Below, one piece after another: positions 21,086 through 29,309 of a DNA stretch of 33,034 nt. Origin of the DNA: Syntrophomonadaceae bacterium (GTDB taxonomy: Bacteria > Bacillota > Dethiobacteria > DTU022); contig PUKV01000245.1 in assembly GCA_003550645.1 (NCBI GenBank), positions 1 to 33,034 on the forward strand, in the 5' to 3' direction. A program made the translations under genes and the position numbers. Position 1 is the stretch's first letter. Each line of letters starts with the position of its first letter. The notes under the pieces were generated by a model, which worked only from the letters and a program-made list of their open reading frames with translations, was not told where the DNA came from and made no database searches.

Positions 21086-21412
21086 ATGAGCGAAAGTAAC
21101 CTGAACGAAAAAGCCTTAAACTTAAAAACCCTGGTAGAATACCAGGACGGATCGATTGTCAGCAAGGAAGTGATGAAAAAAGATACAGGCTCGGTTACCC
21201 TGTTCGCATTTGACCAGGGCCAGGGATTAAGCGAACATACCGCTACCTTTGATGCCATGGTCTGCATCCTGGACGGTAGAGCGGAGGTAATTATCTCCGG
21301 GCAGCCCTACCAGGTGCGTGAAGGTGAAATGATCATCATGCCGGCCGACAAACCGCATGCCCTTAAAGCCAACGAGCGTTTTAAAATGATGCTGGTGATG
21401 ATCCGGTCCTGA
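21086..21412 (+). CDS. Cupin-domain protein
   Basis: LSEHTATFDAMVCILDGRAEVIISGQPYQVREGEMIIMPADKPHALKANERFKMMLVMIRS; GGGAGG upstream. Confidence 0.9.
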   Translation: MSESNLNEKALNLKTLVEYQDGSIVSKEVMKKDTGSVTLFAFDQGQGLSEHTATFDAMVCILDGRAEVIISGQPYQVREGEMIIMPADKPHALKANERFKMMLVMIRS

Positions 21413-21476
21413 GTGTTTTTTGCCCGGCTGGAGTAATAATTTTTCCGCAAAAATTCTTTTACTGGAGGTTAGATCA

Positions 21477-22673
21477 ATGTCTTTTAAAGTAAATGATAAT
21501 GTGACCTGGGTCGGAAAAATTGACTGGGAACTGCGCAAGTTCCACGGAGAAGAGCTGAGCACCCACAAGGGGACCAGCTATAACTCCTACCTGGTCAGGG
21601 GCAGCGAAAAGACCGTCTTAATCGACACGGTCTGGAAGCCTTTTGCCGAAGAGTTTGTCAAAAATTTGAAAAAAGAAATTGACTTAAATGAAATCGACTG
21701 CATCGTAGCCAACCACGGCGAGGTTGACCACAGCGGCGCTTTGAGAGAACTGCTGCGTGAAATACCGGGCACCCCGGTTTACTGCTCCAAGGCCGCCGTT
21801 AAATCCCTAAAAGGCCAGTACCACGAAGACTGGAATTTCCAGACGGTCAAAACCGGGGATAAGCTGAGCCTGGGCGACCGGGAGCTGGTATTCGTAGAAG
21901 CAAAAATGCTGCACTGGCCGGACAGCATGTTCTGCTACCTGACCGGCGACAATATTCTCTTTCCCAACGACGCTTTCGGGCAGCACTATGCTTCGGAGCA
22001 CATGTTTAACGACCTGGTGGACCAGGACGAACTCTACCGGGAAGCGATCAAGTACTACGCCAACATCCTCACCCCCTTCAGCAAGCTGGTCACCGCCAAG
22101 ATCAAGGAAGTGCTGGACTTAAACCTCCAGGTGGACATGATCTGCCCCAGCCACGGCATCATCTGGCGCCAGGACCCCCTGCAGATAGTCAAAAAGTACC
22201 AGGAGTGGGCCAATGCTTACCAGGAAAATCAGGTCACCATTGTGTATGATACCATGTGGGATGGAACCAGGCGGACTGCTGAAGCGATCGCTGCCGGCAT
22301 CAAGGAAGCTAACCCTGACCTAACGATCAAGCTATATAATGCCGCCCGCTCAGATATTAACGATGTCATTACTGAAATATTTAAATCCAAAGGGGTGGTA
22401 GTGGGTTCTCCTACCATCAACAAAGGTATCCTGCACTCTATCTCCGCTTTAATGGAAATAATCAAGGGCTTAAGTTTCCAGCAAAAGAAAGGGTGCGCTT
22501 TCGGCTGTTACGGCTGGAGCGGCGAATCGGTCAAGCTGATTACCGGTCTGCTTGAAGAAGCCGGGATTGAGCTGATCAACACCGAAGGCCTGCGCATATC
22601 CTGGAACCCGGACGAAGAAGGCGCTGCGGCAGCCAGGACTTACGGGCGGGGGATCGGCACCGCCCTGGCCTGA
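21477..22673 (+). CDS. FprA-family A-type flavoprotein (flavodiiron protein)
   Basis: IVANHGEVDHSGALREL (HxExDH), LHWPDSMFCYLTGDNILFPNDAFGQHYASE, CPSHGIIWR, flavodoxin domain VTIVYDTMWDGTRRTAEAIAAGI. ATG 21477 with GGAGG. Confidence 0.95.
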   Translation: MSFKVNDNVTWVGKIDWELRKFHGEELSTHKGTSYNSYLVRGSEKTVLIDTVWKPFAEEFVKNLKKEIDLNEIDCIVANHGEVDHSGALRELLREIPGTPVYCSKAAVKSLKGQYHEDWNFQTVKTGDKLSLGDRELVFVEAKMLHWPDSMFCYLTGDNILFPNDAFGQHYASEHMFNDLVDQDELYREAIKYYANILTPFSKLVTAKIKEVLDLNLQVDMICPSHGIIWRQDPLQIVKKYQEWANAYQENQVTIVYDTMWDGTRRTAEAIAAGIKEANPDLTIKLYNAARSDINDVITEIFKSKGVVVGSPTINKGILHSISALMEIIKGLSFQQKKGCAFGCYGWSGESVKLITGLLEEAGIELINTEGLRISWNPDEEGAAAARTYGRGIGTALA

Positions 22674-22712: not shown

Positions 22713-22745
22713 GGGGATACGGGTTTAAACCCGGTCCCCTTTTTT
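22713..22745 (+). terminator. Rho-independent terminator of the cupin-flavodiiron operon
   Basis: GGGGATACGGGTTTAAACCCGGTCCCCTTTTTT. Confidence 0.85.
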
Positions 22746-23367
22746 AATGGCCCTGCCAGGGCCGGGCATTGGCGATCCCGTTCCAGTAAATATCAAGAAG
22801 CTTCTTTAAGCGGTTTTCATCTAAATCGACATCATCAAGGATCACCATTTCACCGATTACCATGTGGTTGAGGGCCAGGAAATAACGGCCGGCCAGATCC
22901 GGATCGATATCGGGGCGAATTTCTCCAAGCTTGATCCCTTCCCGGACCAGGCCGGTTATACCCTCCAGCAGTTCCCGGCGCCGCTCAAGAATCCAGGATT
23001 GCAGCTCCTTGAGGCTCTGCGGGCGCTCGTTAAAAAGCAGGTGAAGCTTGTTGCGGTTTTCCTTGACCAGGGCGAGGTGGTTAACCACTATCTCTTCCAT
23101 GGTCTCACGGGCCGAGTTTATTTCCGCCAGATGAGTCTTGAAGAGCTGCAGGTAGGAATCAGCACAGTACGAAAAGCTTTCTTTAAAAAGTTCTTCCTTG
23201 CTGGAAAAGTATTCATAAACGGTCCCTTTACCTACTGCAGCCAGCTCTGCAATTTCGGTTATCGTGACCTGGTAAAAATCCTTTTCCAAAAATTTTTCCA
23301 CAGCTGCAAGCAGGATCTGCTCCCTCTTGGTTCCCGCTTCATTGCTGCGGTGGTTTCCTGCGGGCAT
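22744..23367 (-). CDS. TetR/AcrR family transcriptional regulator
   Basis: TKREQILLAAVEKFLEKDFYQVTITEIAELAAVGKGTVYEYFSSKEELFKESF (HTH). ATG 23367 better spaced from GGGAG than ATG 23373. Confidence 0.93.
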   Translation of the reverse strand: MPAGNHRSNEAGTKREQILLAAVEKFLEKDFYQVTITEIAELAAVGKGTVYEYFSSKEELFKESFSYCADSYLQLFKTHLAEINSARETMEEIVVNHLALVKENRNKLHLLFNERPQSLKELQSWILERRRELLEGITGLVREGIKLGEIRPDIDPDLAGRYFLALNHMVIGEMVILDDVDLDENRLKKLLDIYWNGIANARPWQGH

Positions 23368-23387
23368 TGCCATCTACTCCCTTCCCT

Positions 23388-26300
23388 TTACCGTATTACC
23401 AGCAGAGTTTCCTGGCCGGCAGTGTTAAACAAGAGCAGGATCAGGGCGGCCAGGATCAGGACCAGGACCATGCGCAGAACGATTTTGACCAGGCCGTTTT
23501 TCCGCGGGCGGCCGTACTGATCCTCTTCATAATGTTCTTTGCTATGCTTAAACGGTTTCATAAAACGCCTCCCGGCTCCACTCTCCGGAAGCTGCGCATA
23601 ACCGGTGAACCCTTCTTCGGTGTACCCTGCTTCAAGCGGGCGGTCCCTGGTGACAAGCTTGTATATGGAAGGCACAGCCAAAAGTAGCAGCAGGGTTCCT
23701 GTAAACTGGCCGCCGATGATGGCGATGGCCATCGGGGCCTGCAGTTCGGCCCCTTCTCCAATACCGAGGGCCAGCGGGAAAAGCCCCAGGGCAGTGGTGG
23801 CCGTGGTCATCAGGATAGGGCGCAAACGTGCTGCCGAGCCCTCAACGATTGCCTGCTTCAGGTCCAGGCCGCGCAGCCTGCGCTGCTGGTTGATATAGTC
23901 AACCATGATAATACCGTCGTTAACCAGGATGCCGGATAAAACAATCAGGCCGATCAGGGCGGGAACGCTGATGTTGTTGCCGGTTATCATTAAGGCGATG
24001 ATCGACCCGGCGTAAGCCAGGGGCAGCGTGCAAATGATTATAAAGGGATGCAGCAGCGATTCAAACTGGGCCGCCATAACCAGGTAAACCAGGAGCATGG
24101 CCACAAAGAGGACCAGTTCCAGTTCATCAAGCACCTCGTCCATCATTACGGCGCTGCCGGCCGTGGCAATTTCGTAACCGTCGGGGAGAGCGAGCTCTTC
24201 CAGGGCCTCAAAAGCGATAGACTGGGCCGTACCCATATCCAGGTTTCCATACTGGGCCTCGATCTGGCCGATGATCTCCCGGTTTTCCCGCGGAATACTC
24301 CGGGGGCCAAAAGATTCTTCCAGCTCGGCAACTTCATTGATGCGCACGTACTCACCGCCAGCCGTGTAAAAGCCGACTTCGCCAAGGTCTTCGATGGTCT
24401 TAATCTCACGCTTTTCATAACCGAGGACAATATTCATAATCCCGGTTGAGGTTTCAATCCGGCTTACCGGTATCCCTTCGAGAGATTCCCTGACAGCGCC
24501 GGCCACCTGGGCCAGGGTTACCCCCTTTTGCAGGGCTTCGCTGTGATCGAGGCGGACATGAACCTCGGGGCGGTTTTCTTCCAGGGAAGACTGGACATCG
24601 GTAAACTGGGGATGATCCGATAAAATTTCGGCAGCCTCCCCCGTGATTTCTATGACCCGCTCCAGGTTGTCGCCCCTGACCACCAGATCCAGGCTGGTTT
24701 CCAGCCCGGCAGCATCCAGGACAGTCTGCCTCGAAAAAGTGGTTTGCGCTTCGTAGGGAAGTTTTTCGGCTTCCTGCCTGACCTCCTCGATTACCAGGTC
24801 TATACTTCCAAGGTACTCCGGTGCAATATCCACCCTAAGCCGGCCCTGGTTGGAAGAACCGCCGCCGCCAGGCATGCCCATAAACCCGGATCCGCCCACC
24901 CGGGTTGAATAGCTGTCCACTTCCTCCCTGCCGGCGATAATGTTTTCCAGTTCAGTTATGTAAGCATCAGTTCTTTCAAGCGTGGTCCCGGGAGGCAGGG
25001 TGACATTGATCGAAAAGGACGACTCCTCCGGGTTGGGAAACAGTTCAGTTCCCAGGGTAGTAAAGCCAAAAGCCCCAAAAGCGACAAAAATAAGGGCAAA
25101 AATGATCACCCACCAGGGGTGGTCTACAGCCAGCTTAAGGGAGCGGCGGTATAAGGGGAGGCGGGGTATCTTTGAACGCTCTTCCTGCAGATCTCTTTTT
25201 CTCTGCAGAGAACGGGAAGCAAGCAGGGGGATCACGGTCAGGGCCATGAACAAAGAAGCCAGGATGGCACACCCTACAGTCAAGGCAAATTCCCAGAACA
25301 GCTGGCCGGCCAGACCACTCAGAAAGACCACGGGAAAGAAAACGCTGATCGTGGTCAGGGTAGAAGCAGTGATCGCCCCGGCCACCTCCCGGGCTCCGTT
25401 GATGGAAGCTTCGGCTGGATTTTCGCCCAGCTGATAATGACGGTAAATATTTTCACTGACCACGATAGCATTATCAACCAGCATCCCCGCCGCCAGGGCC
25501 AGACCGCCCAGGGTCATCAGGTTAATGGTAATGTCCGTAAAATAAAGCAGGGTAAAAGTGGCAATGATCGCTGCAGGAATACTGAGGCCGATAAACATGG
25601 TCGTGCGCCAGTTTTTCAAAAACAGGAGCAGGACAATTATAGCCAGGGCGGCCCCGCCGAGCAGCGACCGGGCCAGGTCGGCCAGGGCATGTTCAATTTC
25701 TTCAGCCTGGTCAAAGACGGTATTAAACTGCACCTGGGAAAAGTTACCAACGCTTTCTTCGGAAAGCTCATCTAAGGCCTGGCGCACCTGCCGGGCCACG
25801 GAGACGGTATTGGCATCGCCTTCTTTTTGAATCATCAGGCCGATGCTGGGCTGCATGTTAAACCGGGAAAAGGAAGTCGGTTCATAGGTGTCCTGCACGA
25901 TATCGGCCACCATCCCCAGCGATACCGGGACAATGGGAAAATCGTCACCAAGGTCAATACCGGCAAAGGGGTTGCCTCCGCCAACAGACATATTGCCGCC
26001 GATCATCCCCGCCGCCAGATCGGTAAGAAGGTCTTCCAGGCCGAGCGAGGCATCATCGAGCCCCCGCCTGGTTTCTCTTTCCAGGTCTGAAAAAAAACTT
26101 TCCAGGTCGGGTATGGATATAAGAGGCTCCTGCCGGATATCGGGCCAGTTTTCATGAAAACTGACCAGCAGGTGGTTGGCGCCGGCAGCGGTTATTAGAG
26201 GGTGGCGTTCAACCAGCCTCTCCAGGTCGGTTGAATTGAGCTCATAGTTACCCAGGGCAACCGGGTCCAGGGGAATAATAACCCGGTCGTTATCCCAGGC

Positions 26301-27449
26301 TGCATAATCGATGAGCCAGAGCTGTTCAAGGGTAAGGGGGCCGTCTGCAAGTAGTTCCGAAAAATCCCGGTCCAAATTAACAGGAAGGTTGCCAAGCGAA
26401 TCCATGGAAAGGACCAGGTGCCTGCTACCAGCCTGATAGGTAATTTCCGGATGCGCGGTAAAGATGCGCATACTGCTTTCCAGGTCTACATCTTCATTGC
26501 CGGCAGCTTGATCTGTAACGGGTAAAATAATGCTGCTGCCTGATACAGTGGCGCCGTTGAAATCAAAAATATCATCCCAGTAGAGTTCCCGGACAGGCAG
26601 GCTGCCGGAACCGCCTCCACCGCCGGCAAAACCGGTTGCCTGCTCTTCGATGATGCGGTTTAAGTCAATATTGATTTCCTGCCCGATCAGCCTTTCCAGT
26701 TCGTCCTGGTCGATTTTAAAGCCGACAATCAGGTCTGATAACATATCCGCTTCTGCGTAGCGGCCCAGGAAACGGAGCCGGACCTGGCGATCCTCGAGAT
26801 CAATGATCCCGGCCGGCAGGTCCATCAGGCTGGCCCGGAGCACGTTGGCTACCTGCTCAAAAGAGACTTCATATTCGGCCATCTGCCCCGGCTCAGCCCT
26901 GACAAATATATCTTCTTCCACCCCGCCCTGGACCTGCACCTCGGCCACGCCAAGGATCGATTCCAGCCTGGGAGCGGCCGTTTCTTTCAACCATTCTGTC
27001 AGTCGGGCCGGATCATCGGCCCCCGAGGCTGAAACCTGCATAATCGGCATCAGGGTGGGATCAAACTCAATAATCATGGGCCTCTGGACCTCATCAGGCA
27101 GGTTAACCAGGTCCAGGCGCATCCTGACATCCTCACGCAAACTCTTAACGTCGGCGCCCCAGTCAAATAAAACGATGACCAGGGACATATTTTCCTGGGA
27201 AATGGAGTTGATACCGGTAACCCCACCGACAGTGGATACGCCTTCCTCAATGGGCCTGGTGACCAGCTCCAGCGATTCCTGGGGAGAACTGCCGGGAAAT
27301 GCAGTAATCACGGCCAGCACCGGGGCTTCAATGTCCGGCAGCAGGTCGAGTGGGCTCTGGGACAGGCTTACCAGCCCGATCACCAGGATCAAGATTAATA
27401 TGGCCCCGGTCGCAACGGGGCGTTTAACTGCCAGTCTTGACAGGTTCAT
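23388..27449 (-). CDS. RND (AcrB/SwrC-type) efflux permease, 1353 aa, with large periplasmic-loop insertion and C-terminal extra TM
   Basis: MNLSRLAVKRPVATGAILILILVIGLVSLSQSPLDLLPDIEAPVLAVITAFPGSSPQE...GGLALAAGMLVDNAIVVSENIYRH...GIIMVDYINQQRRLRGLDLKQAIVEGSAARLRPILMTTATTALGLFPLALG; AGGAG 9 nt before ATG. Confidence 0.95.
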   Translation of the reverse strand: MNLSRLAVKRPVATGAILILILVIGLVSLSQSPLDLLPDIEAPVLAVITAFPGSSPQESLELVTRPIEEGVSTVGGVTGINSISQENMSLVIVLFDWGADVKSLREDVRMRLDLVNLPDEVQRPMIIEFDPTLMPIMQVSASGADDPARLTEWLKETAAPRLESILGVAEVQVQGGVEEDIFVRAEPGQMAEYEVSFEQVANVLRASLMDLPAGIIDLEDRQVRLRFLGRYAEADMLSDLIVGFKIDQDELERLIGQEINIDLNRIIEEQATGFAGGGGGSGSLPVRELYWDDIFDFNGATVSGSSIILPVTDQAAGNEDVDLESSMRIFTAHPEITYQAGSRHLVLSMDSLGNLPVNLDRDFSELLADGPLTLEQLWLIDYAAWDNDRVIIPLDPVALGNYELNSTDLERLVERHPLITAAGANHLLVSFHENWPDIRQEPLISIPDLESFFSDLERETRRGLDDASLGLEDLLTDLAAGMIGGNMSVGGGNPFAGIDLGDDFPIVPVSLGMVADIVQDTYEPTSFSRFNMQPSIGLMIQKEGDANTVSVARQVRQALDELSEESVGNFSQVQFNTVFDQAEEIEHALADLARSLLGGAALAIIVLLLFLKNWRTTMFIGLSIPAAIIATFTLLYFTDITINLMTLGGLALAAGMLVDNAIVVSENIYRHYQLGENPAEASINGAREVAGAITASTLTTISVFFPVVFLSGLAGQLFWEFALTVGCAILASLFMALTVIPLLASRSLQRKRDLQEERSKIPRLPLYRRSLKLAVDHPWWVIIFALIFVAFGAFGFTTLGTELFPNPEESSFSINVTLPPGTTLERTDAYITELENIIAGREEVDSYSTRVGGSGFMGMPGGGGSSNQGRLRVDIAPEYLGSIDLVIEEVRQEAEKLPYEAQTTFSRQTVLDAAGLETSLDLVVRGDNLERVIEITGEAAEILSDHPQFTDVQSSLEENRPEVHVRLDHSEALQKGVTLAQVAGAVRESLEGIPVSRIETSTGIMNIVLGYEKREIKTIEDLGEVGFYTAGGEYVRINEVAELEESFGPRSIPRENREIIGQIEAQYGNLDMGTAQSIAFEALEELALPDGYEIATAGSAVMMDEVLDELELVLFVAMLLVYLVMAAQFESLLHPFIIICTLPLAYAGSIIALMITGNNISVPALIGLIVLSGILVNDGIIMVDYINQQRRLRGLDLKQAIVEGSAARLRPILMTTATTALGLFPLALGIGEGAELQAPMAIAIIGGQFTGTLLLLLAVPSIYKLVTRDRPLEAGYTEEGFTGYAQLPESGAGRRFMKPFKHSKEHYEEDQYGRPRKNGLVKIVLRMVLVLILAALILLLFNTAGQETLLVIR

Positions 27450-27902: not shown

Positions 27903-29309
27903 TTAAAGCAGCGCCGCCTTTTCAGAGATCAAGTCCCAGGCTGCACGGACATGCCGCTCTGCCGTGGTCCTCTGGCCAATAGCCATGCGGATGGTGTAGC
28001 GGCCTTTTAATGTAGTGTGGGTTAAAAAAACTGTGCCGGCCTCGTTAACCTTTTCCAGCAGGGCGGCATTTAATGAGTTCAACTCCTCCTCGGAAACGCC
28101 GTCTTTCCTGTACCGGAAACAGACCAGGCTGAACTGGACCGGGGCCATCAGTTCAAAACGGCTGTCTGCTTCCACCCACTCTTTGAACAGGCCGGCCAGG
28201 TGAAGGTGCTCCCGGACCATTTCCTTTAATCCTTCCACCCCGTAAGTGCGGATCACAAACCACAGCTTCAGGGCCCGGAAGCGGCGGCCCAGCTGGATCC
28301 CCCAATCCCGGTAATTTTTAACTTCAGCATCCCGCTCGGTTTTCAAATACTCGGGGTGGATTTCGAAAGTACGGACCAGCGCTTCTTCGTCCCTGACAAA
28401 GTAAGCGGAGCAGTCGAAGTTAGTCAGCATCCACTTGTGGGGGTTGAAAACAAAGGAGTCAAAGAACTCTGAGCCGTCTAACAGGTGCTTCTTTTCCTCA
28501 AGCAGGGCGGCAGTCCCGCCAAAGGCGGCATCAACATGGAACCAGAGGCCGTGGCGGCGGCAGATCGGCCCAATCTCGGCCAGGGGATCGACTGCGGTTG
28601 ATGAAGTAGTGCCGATGGTGCCGATTACGCAAGCCGGTCCAAACCCGTCATCCCGGTCTTTTTCAATAGCTTTTTCCAGCTCTTCGGGGATCATGGCAAA
28701 ATTTTGGTCGGTAGGAATATGGCGCAGGTGTTCAATGCCGTAACCGGCAATTTTAACGTCCTTGTCGATACTGGAATGTCCCTCTTCGGAAGTATACACA
28801 CACAAAGGGCGGCGCAGGCCGCTGCGGTTGGACTCATAATTGGTCGCTTTTTCCCGGGCTGTAAGGAGAGCACAAAGGGTGGCCGTGGAGGCGGTATCCT
28901 GGATCACCCCGCTCATCACCTCAGGCAGACCAAGCATGCGGCCGAGCCACTGCATGACCACTTCTTCCAATTCTGCCGCTGCAGGTGAAGTCTGCCAGAC
29001 CATACACTGCGCCCCAAGGCCGGCGGTTAAAAGCTCGGCCAGCACCGAGGCGGGGCTGTTGTTGGCCGGAAAATAGGCAAACCAGCCCGGATGCTGCCAG
29101 TGGGTAATGCCGGGAATAATTATTTCCCGGAAGTCGCTAAATATTTTCTCCATCGGTTCTCCGGACTGAGGGGGCTGATCAGACAAGGCCTCCTTTATTT
29201 CACCCGGGTTTACAGTCGAACGGACCGGATATTTTTCTACTTCCTCAAAATAGTCTGCTACCCAGTCGATAAACTCGTAACCATAACGGCGGAATGTTTC
29301 TTTATCCAT
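27903..29309 (-). CDS. PLP-dependent (aromatic-L-amino-acid type) group II decarboxylase
   Basis: HPGWFAYFPANNSPASVLAELLTAGLGAQCMVWQTSPAAAELEEVVMQWLGRMLGLP, LWFHVDAAFGGTAAL, FVFNPHKWMLTNFDCSAYFVRD (PLP Lys). Confidence 0.92.
   Translation of the reverse strand: MDKETFRRYGYEFIDWVADYFEEVEKYPVRSTVNPGEIKEALSDQPPQSGEPMEKIFSDFREIIIPGITHWQHPGWFAYFPANNSPASVLAELLTAGLGAQCMVWQTSPAAAELEEVVMQWLGRMLGLPEVMSGVIQDTASTATLCALLTAREKATNYESNRSGLRRPLCVYTSEEGHSSIDKDVKIAGYGIEHLRHIPTDQNFAMIPEELEKAIEKDRDDGFGPACVIGTIGTTSSTAVDPLAEIGPICRRHGLWFHVDAAFGGTAALLEEKKHLLDGSEFFDSFVFNPHKWMLTNFDCSAYFVRDEEALVRTFEIHPEYLKTERDAEVKNYRDWGIQLGRRFRALKLWFVIRTYGVEGLKEMVREHLHLAGLFKEWVEADSRFELMAPVQFSLVCFRYRKDGVSEEELNSLNAALLEKVNEAGTVFLTHTTLKGRYTIRMAIGQRTTAERHVRAAWDLISEKAALL

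Follow-up and report, generated by a model that had tools for sequence, protein, structure and literature searches.

In AcrB, an RND pump of the HAE1 type (PF00873), to which MdtB and MexB also belong, the b1 hairpin, including D256, docks TolC (PMC2292822). The way in which RND pumps operate in bacteria that have no outer membrane, often with no partners, is an open question (PMC5417439). In the Gram-positive pumps YerP/SwrC of B. subtilis and BC5435 of B. cereus, an extended docking loop has been noted, in the region that corresponds to the TolC docking domain of AcrB, and this loop is rich in Gln, Ser, and Ala in BC5435 (PMC5417439). In the mycobacterial MmpL5, which works with the partners MmpS and AcpM, a coiled-coil insert of 196 aa in the PD2 is needed for efflux, and has been modelled as an exit tube (PMC12501195).

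The window analyzed here, that is, the whole stretch of 33,034 nucleotides, contains on its minus strand (23388-27449) an ORF of 1353 aa that encodes an RND permease. The PF00873 profile matches both halves of this protein (E 3.3e-220), in two stretches with the break at an insert, the match to the family being interrupted at residues 243/508, and the closest solved relative is MdtB (E 1.3e-107). The permease is a member of the known RND family. The first TM4 aspartate of the proton relay, D659, is invariant, and both the second TM4 aspartate and the TM10 lysine position are occupied by asparagine, as in most of the insert-free relatives compared. The pump shares the 12-TM core, the porter and docking subdomains, and the first TM4 aspartate with the HAE1-type permeases, but differs from them in the two putative extra docking modules nested in its N-terminal docking subdomain (DN), in its 13th TM helix, and in the lack of an adjacent adaptor gene. 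The original prediction had the protein at 1353 aa, instead of the ~1050 aa typical of the family, and this is the length read here, including an insert of 263 aa. The features of the locus are the following:

22744-23373, minus strand: TetR-family regulator, 14 bp downstream of the permease gene
23388-27449, minus strand: RND (HAE1-type) permease gene, 1353 aa, with putative nested docking modules and a C-terminal 13th TM helix
23424-23492, minus strand: 13th hydrophobic helix, in the C-terminal extension, confined to the two-module clade
25896-25940, minus strand: native DN strand VPVSLGMVADIV, residues 504-518, where the RND fold resumes
25932-26720, minus strand: whole insert, residues 244-506, 263 aa, between DN a2 and the native VPVSLGMVADI strand (MdtB 257/261)
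25941-25991, minus strand: Gly-rich return linker, residues 487-503
25992-26105, minus strand: C-arm, a long amphipathic helix, residues 449-486
26106-26339, minus strand: candidate extra docking module 2 (unit 2), residues 371-448, with a VxLxDVA-like strand, b1, a1, hairpin, and a2-like helix
26340-26600, minus strand: candidate extra docking module 1 (unit 1), residues 284-370, with a VxLxDVA-like strand, b1, a1, hairpin, and a2-like helix
26601-26633, minus strand: Gly-rich linker GFAGGGGGSGS, residues 273-283
26640-26720, minus strand: N-arm helices, residues 244-270, conserved in the long (two-unit) and short (one-unit) forms of the insert
26721-26915, minus strand: native DN b1-a1-hairpin-a2, residues 179-243, the likely template of the duplication, based on sequence matches and secondary structure

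From the N- to the C-terminus, the insert opens with two helices and a Gly-rich linker, continues with units 1 and 2, and closes with a long helix and a second Gly-rich linker. The original prediction, which placed it at residues ~244-505, with helical segments and Gly-rich linkers flanking the units, was accurate in its coordinates, sequences, and arrangement. In the alignment with MdtB, residues 257 and 261 flank the insertion point, which is in the hairpin after DN helix a2, and the insert is located at the tip of the upright hairpin of this subdomain; the b1 hairpin of AcrB was equated with this site by eye, through alignment on the conserved VxLxDVA strand. The arms of the insert are better conserved than the modules. 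The idea that the insert is a known domain was rejected, given that no match to it was found in Pfam or NCBIfam, and no significant match among the PDB sequences.

The two monomer models obtained are of modest confidence. The insert-only model has a mean pLDDT of 69 and a pTM of 0.50, with most of the ten-residue blocks of the units at 74-88, and the other model has a mean pLDDT of 68. The predicted secondary structure of unit 2 follows the DN order, E-H-H-E-E-H-E. The search of the PDB folds with the insert-only model returned no match below E 1e-3, and the search with the model of the whole N-loop returned only RND pumps among the matches listed. The insert lies in the first half of the protein and its units are alpha/beta, and the long antiparallel PD2 coiled coil of the MmpL type is not found here.

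The interpretation of the units as degenerate copies of the docking module, in register, is well supported by the sequence comparisons for unit 2 and the short form, and indirectly for unit 1. The units are similar to one another, as had been predicted, with a BLOSUM62 alignment score of 65, compared with a maximum of 47 in 2000 shuffles, a BLASTP E of 4e-7, and a profile-profile E of 8e-4 over 70 columns. The 84-column core of the short form was run against a profile built from 14 insert-free RND pumps (1034 positions), and matches both DC (701-771, E 2.8e-4, score 34.6) and DN (184-246, E 7.9e-4, score 31.8), whereas the best score reached in 200 permutations of its columns was 19.9. This same core matches unit 2 (E 6e-10) and unit 1 (E 7e-4). 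The HMM of the short insert, when run over 399 genomes, also matches RND genes that lack this insert, at DN and weakly at DC, with one ordinary RND being matched at DN 185-257 (E 3e-6), and weakly at DC, and another at DN (E 8.7e-6).

Unit 2 alone finds DN first in the RND profile, followed by DC and the VRLGDVA strand, with a score that was reached by 0-1 of 100 permutations. In both unit 2 and the short form, the b1-a1 segment has DN as its best match and the pseudo-symmetric DC as the second best. Both units and the short form start with a VxLxDVA-like segment, and for all three of these segments the native VRLGDVA strand ranks at the top of ~1025 profile windows, which agrees with the earlier observation that the units begin like the native PVxLxxVADI strand. 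Unit 1 alone does not rise above the permuted controls against the RND profile, and its b1-a1 part is too diverged to find DN; its link to the docking module is provided by unit 2 and the short form. The profiles of the units have no match to the native PN1 or to the segments that follow the junction. The tandem duplication of an RND element at the junction, as originally proposed, is thus upheld, although the duplicated element would be larger, corresponding to the whole docking module; the helical arms and the Gly-rich linkers of the insert are additions, external to the duplication. As the insert model has no PDB fold match below E 1e-3, the case for this homology is built on the sequence, the register, and the secondary structure.

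The gene is present in 11 of the 12 genomes of the genus, including that of the window, and is missing from G004, which is 71% complete. Several of the copies end at contig ends, with only the C-terminal part being present in G008, for example, but the insert is found, in frame, in every copy in which the contig covers this region of the gene, in the genus and in most of the family. In comparison with four close relatives, the dN/dS is ~0.15-0.25 in the insert and ~0.06-0.11 in the core, which shows that the insert evolves faster than the core, yet is clearly constrained by purifying selection. A misassembly or frameshift was rejected on the basis of this conservation, reading frame, and selection. 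The two doubts raised with the original prediction were resolved in its favor, given that the close homologs, across the genus and most of the family, carry the same insert rather than being of standard length, and that no such RND subdomain was found in the domain libraries or the open-access papers searched.

The named records that carry the gene are mostly MAGs denominated “Syntrophomonadaceae bacterium”, with sample labels that we take to refer to soda lakes. The short insert, of ~173-190 aa with one unit, is found in other members of the order, as well as in two genomes from a different class, and this one-module form also occurs in records with labels of other types. No match was found in the plasmid records. 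Two sequences included initially by their length, L029 and L030, were rejected as members, as they carry an unrelated coiled coil. The RND gene of one MAG titled Chloroflexota (L066) is identical to the one found in a Bacillota MAG (L065), which probably reflects a binning error.

In a tree of the RND core, from which the insert was excluded (a quick method with no bootstrap, rooted at the midpoint), the insert-bearing pumps form a single clade, within which the long forms group together, nested among the short ones (SH-aLRT 100 for both groupings); two sequences in this tree, L019 and L021, are labelled “None” only because they are C-terminal fragments. Given the single clade and the nested position of the long forms, the simplest history is that of a single gain of one module, followed by a single doubling in the lineage from which the long forms descend. 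The order [VxLxDVA]-b1-a1-hairpin-a2 is present in one copy in the short insert, and in two copies in the long insert. Judging from this order of the elements, the insert may have originated by the in-frame tandem duplication of the DN block b1-a1-hairpin-a2-[VxLxDVA], which would have placed a [VxLxDVA]-b1-a1-hairpin-a2 unit between a2 and the final strand.

The C-terminal extension with the 13th hydrophobic helix was gained by the long clade alone. The sole intermediate, L020, which groups with a short form, has an insert of ~235 aa and a C-terminal extension that lacks the hydrophobic helix. The same extension with a 13th helix as that of the window permease, seen only in the two-module clade, was observed in L043, L044, L047, L051, L054, and L062, and it often terminates in a conserved GQExLxVIR-like motif.

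The presence of an adaptor gene beside the pump separates the different forms of RND gene. An adaptor of the HlyD_D23/HlyD_3 family, which was confirmed on three representatives and used to search all the RND neighbors again with the adaptor HMM, adjoins all 13 of the insert-free RND genes with a readable context, 12 in the class and one outside it, with one further gene, at a contig end, being left out of this count. No adaptor gene adjoins any of the 22 loci with a docking-module insert (some of which are cut on one side), nor any of the three loci with unrelated coiled-coil inserts in DN. This contrast corresponds to some three evolutionary events, rather than 25, given a single origin of the insert and probably two origins of the coiled coils. 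The absence of an adaptor, suggested originally, was confirmed at the locus itself, but not for the genome of the window as a whole, in which HlyD_D23 was matched at C100 and C66, and OEP at C66. The search for Omp85 found none in this genome or in 39 relatives, with positive controls, which fits cells that have no outer membrane. Genes similar to OEP/TolC were observed near the insert-free RND-adaptor pairs (L122, L123, L124, and L125), in a lineage in which Omp85 was not found.

The absence of an adaptor beside the pumps with the docking-module insert suggests that the exit piece is built into the pump itself. The anatomy of this pump is well supported, and its function can be proposed by inference. 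It seems somewhat probable that the insert serves as an integral extension of the exit funnel, which stands in for the adaptor in a cell with no outer membrane. The two degenerate module copies, on their helical arms, lie at the tip of the DN hairpin, where AcrB meets TolC, and in the trimer, six extra modules (two per protomer) would sit on or beside the native ring of six (three DN and three DC), lengthening or capping the exit funnel. The extra modules may thus take on the adaptor’s tasks of sealing and guiding, in a pump formed by a single polypeptide, which would pick up amphiphiles in the outer leaflet of the membrane and carry them out beyond it, with no outer membrane involved. With twelve docking modules per trimer, instead of six, there would be room for a second ring, and it is conceivable, if rather speculative, that a second pseudo-hexameric ring, of six native and six extra modules, replaces the hexameric adaptor in a one-gene, self-adapted RND pump. 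If so, this would be an RND polypeptide that has twice duplicated its own docking domain inside itself. The natural series of pumps with no, one, or two modules, in which an adjacent adaptor gene and an enlarged docking domain are mutually exclusive, would allow the role of the adaptor to be tested separately, and points to a simple evolutionary route, whereby the in-frame duplication of a module within one gene could permit a protein to take over the function of its partner.

It is unlikely that the modules instead bind a partner, such as a cell-wall polymer, an S-layer, or another envelope protein, to anchor or position the pump, with no extension of the duct. The helical arms and Gly-rich linkers do resemble a mobile stalk, the arms are the better conserved parts, and the 13th TM helix and conserved outer C-terminus gained by the two-module clade make new contacts plausible, but the units appear to be self-derived docking modules, rather than a known wall-binding domain, with no match in Pfam, and the insertion site is the exit crown. 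A quite improbable reading is that the modules form an exit lid or valve, which limits back-flow, at high salt or high pH, for example, rather than substituting for the adaptor. While the position at the exit tip and the soda-lake-type labels of many of the carriers are compatible with this, the one-module form is not restricted to soda lakes, given its occurrence in a second class and under labels of other types, and the link with the absence of an adaptor would be left unexplained.

The adaptors encoded elsewhere in some carrier genomes, including that of the window, could act in trans, and the pump might use one of these, the insert merely altering the docking surface. The hits at C100 and C66 are in line with this idea, but three near-complete carriers, G013 (97%), G015 (96%), and G018 (97%), have no HlyD_D23 hit at all. 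This reading is as improbable as that of the valve. The least credible proposal is that the insert is unrelated to the docking module, and is a separate repeat domain that converged on a similar pattern. The lack of a fold match for the insert model and the failure of the RND profile to recognize unit 1 alone are what would be expected in this case, but the match involves several elements, aligned in the correct register, exceeds the permutation controls, and has DN and DC as its two best places. The preferred reading is still that of a duplicated docking module that extends the exit funnel.

In comparison with the systems described previously, the window pump resembles YerP/SwrC and BC5435 in having its extension in the region of AcrB’s TolC docking domain, in bacteria with no outer membrane (PMC5417439), but the insert appears, from its sequence, to be a duplicated folded module, rather than a Gln/Ser/Ala-rich loop as in BC5435 (PMC5417439). 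As in MmpL5 (PMC12501195), a periplasmic domain of this RND pump carries a large insert, but the pump is of the HAE1 type, with the docking modules in DN, whereas MmpL5 has the MmpL coiled coil in PD2, and its MmpS and AcpM partners (PMC12501195). The RND family, the extended docking loops of the Gram-positive pumps, and the exit coiled coil of MmpL5 are thus already known, and what appears to be new is the nested duplication of the docking module, no description of which was found in the limited open-access literature searched.

Other pumps of the same phylum also have an enlarged DN and no adjacent adaptor gene, but differ in the unrelated coiled-coil sequence of their inserts. These pumps include the RND permeases L132 (G012) and L133 (G022), of ~1240-1293 aa, with a long coiled-coil insert at another point in DN and no adaptor gene nearby. 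In L150:4850-8197, on the minus strand (G214), the coiled-coil insert, of ~120 aa, is at the same DN hairpin as the window insert, and there is also no nearby adaptor gene.

The TetR-family regulator, which is on the same strand as the permease, is probably in one operon with it. The gene order around the long-form RND recurs (27903-29309, minus strand, and 21086-22673, plus strand, in the window; L136-L139, and L116-L119), often with a pyridoxal-dependent decarboxylase (PF00282) upstream, and with TetR downstream, followed by a flavodiiron-type protein and a cupin. The presence of this decarboxylase beside the long-form RND might hint at an amine substrate.
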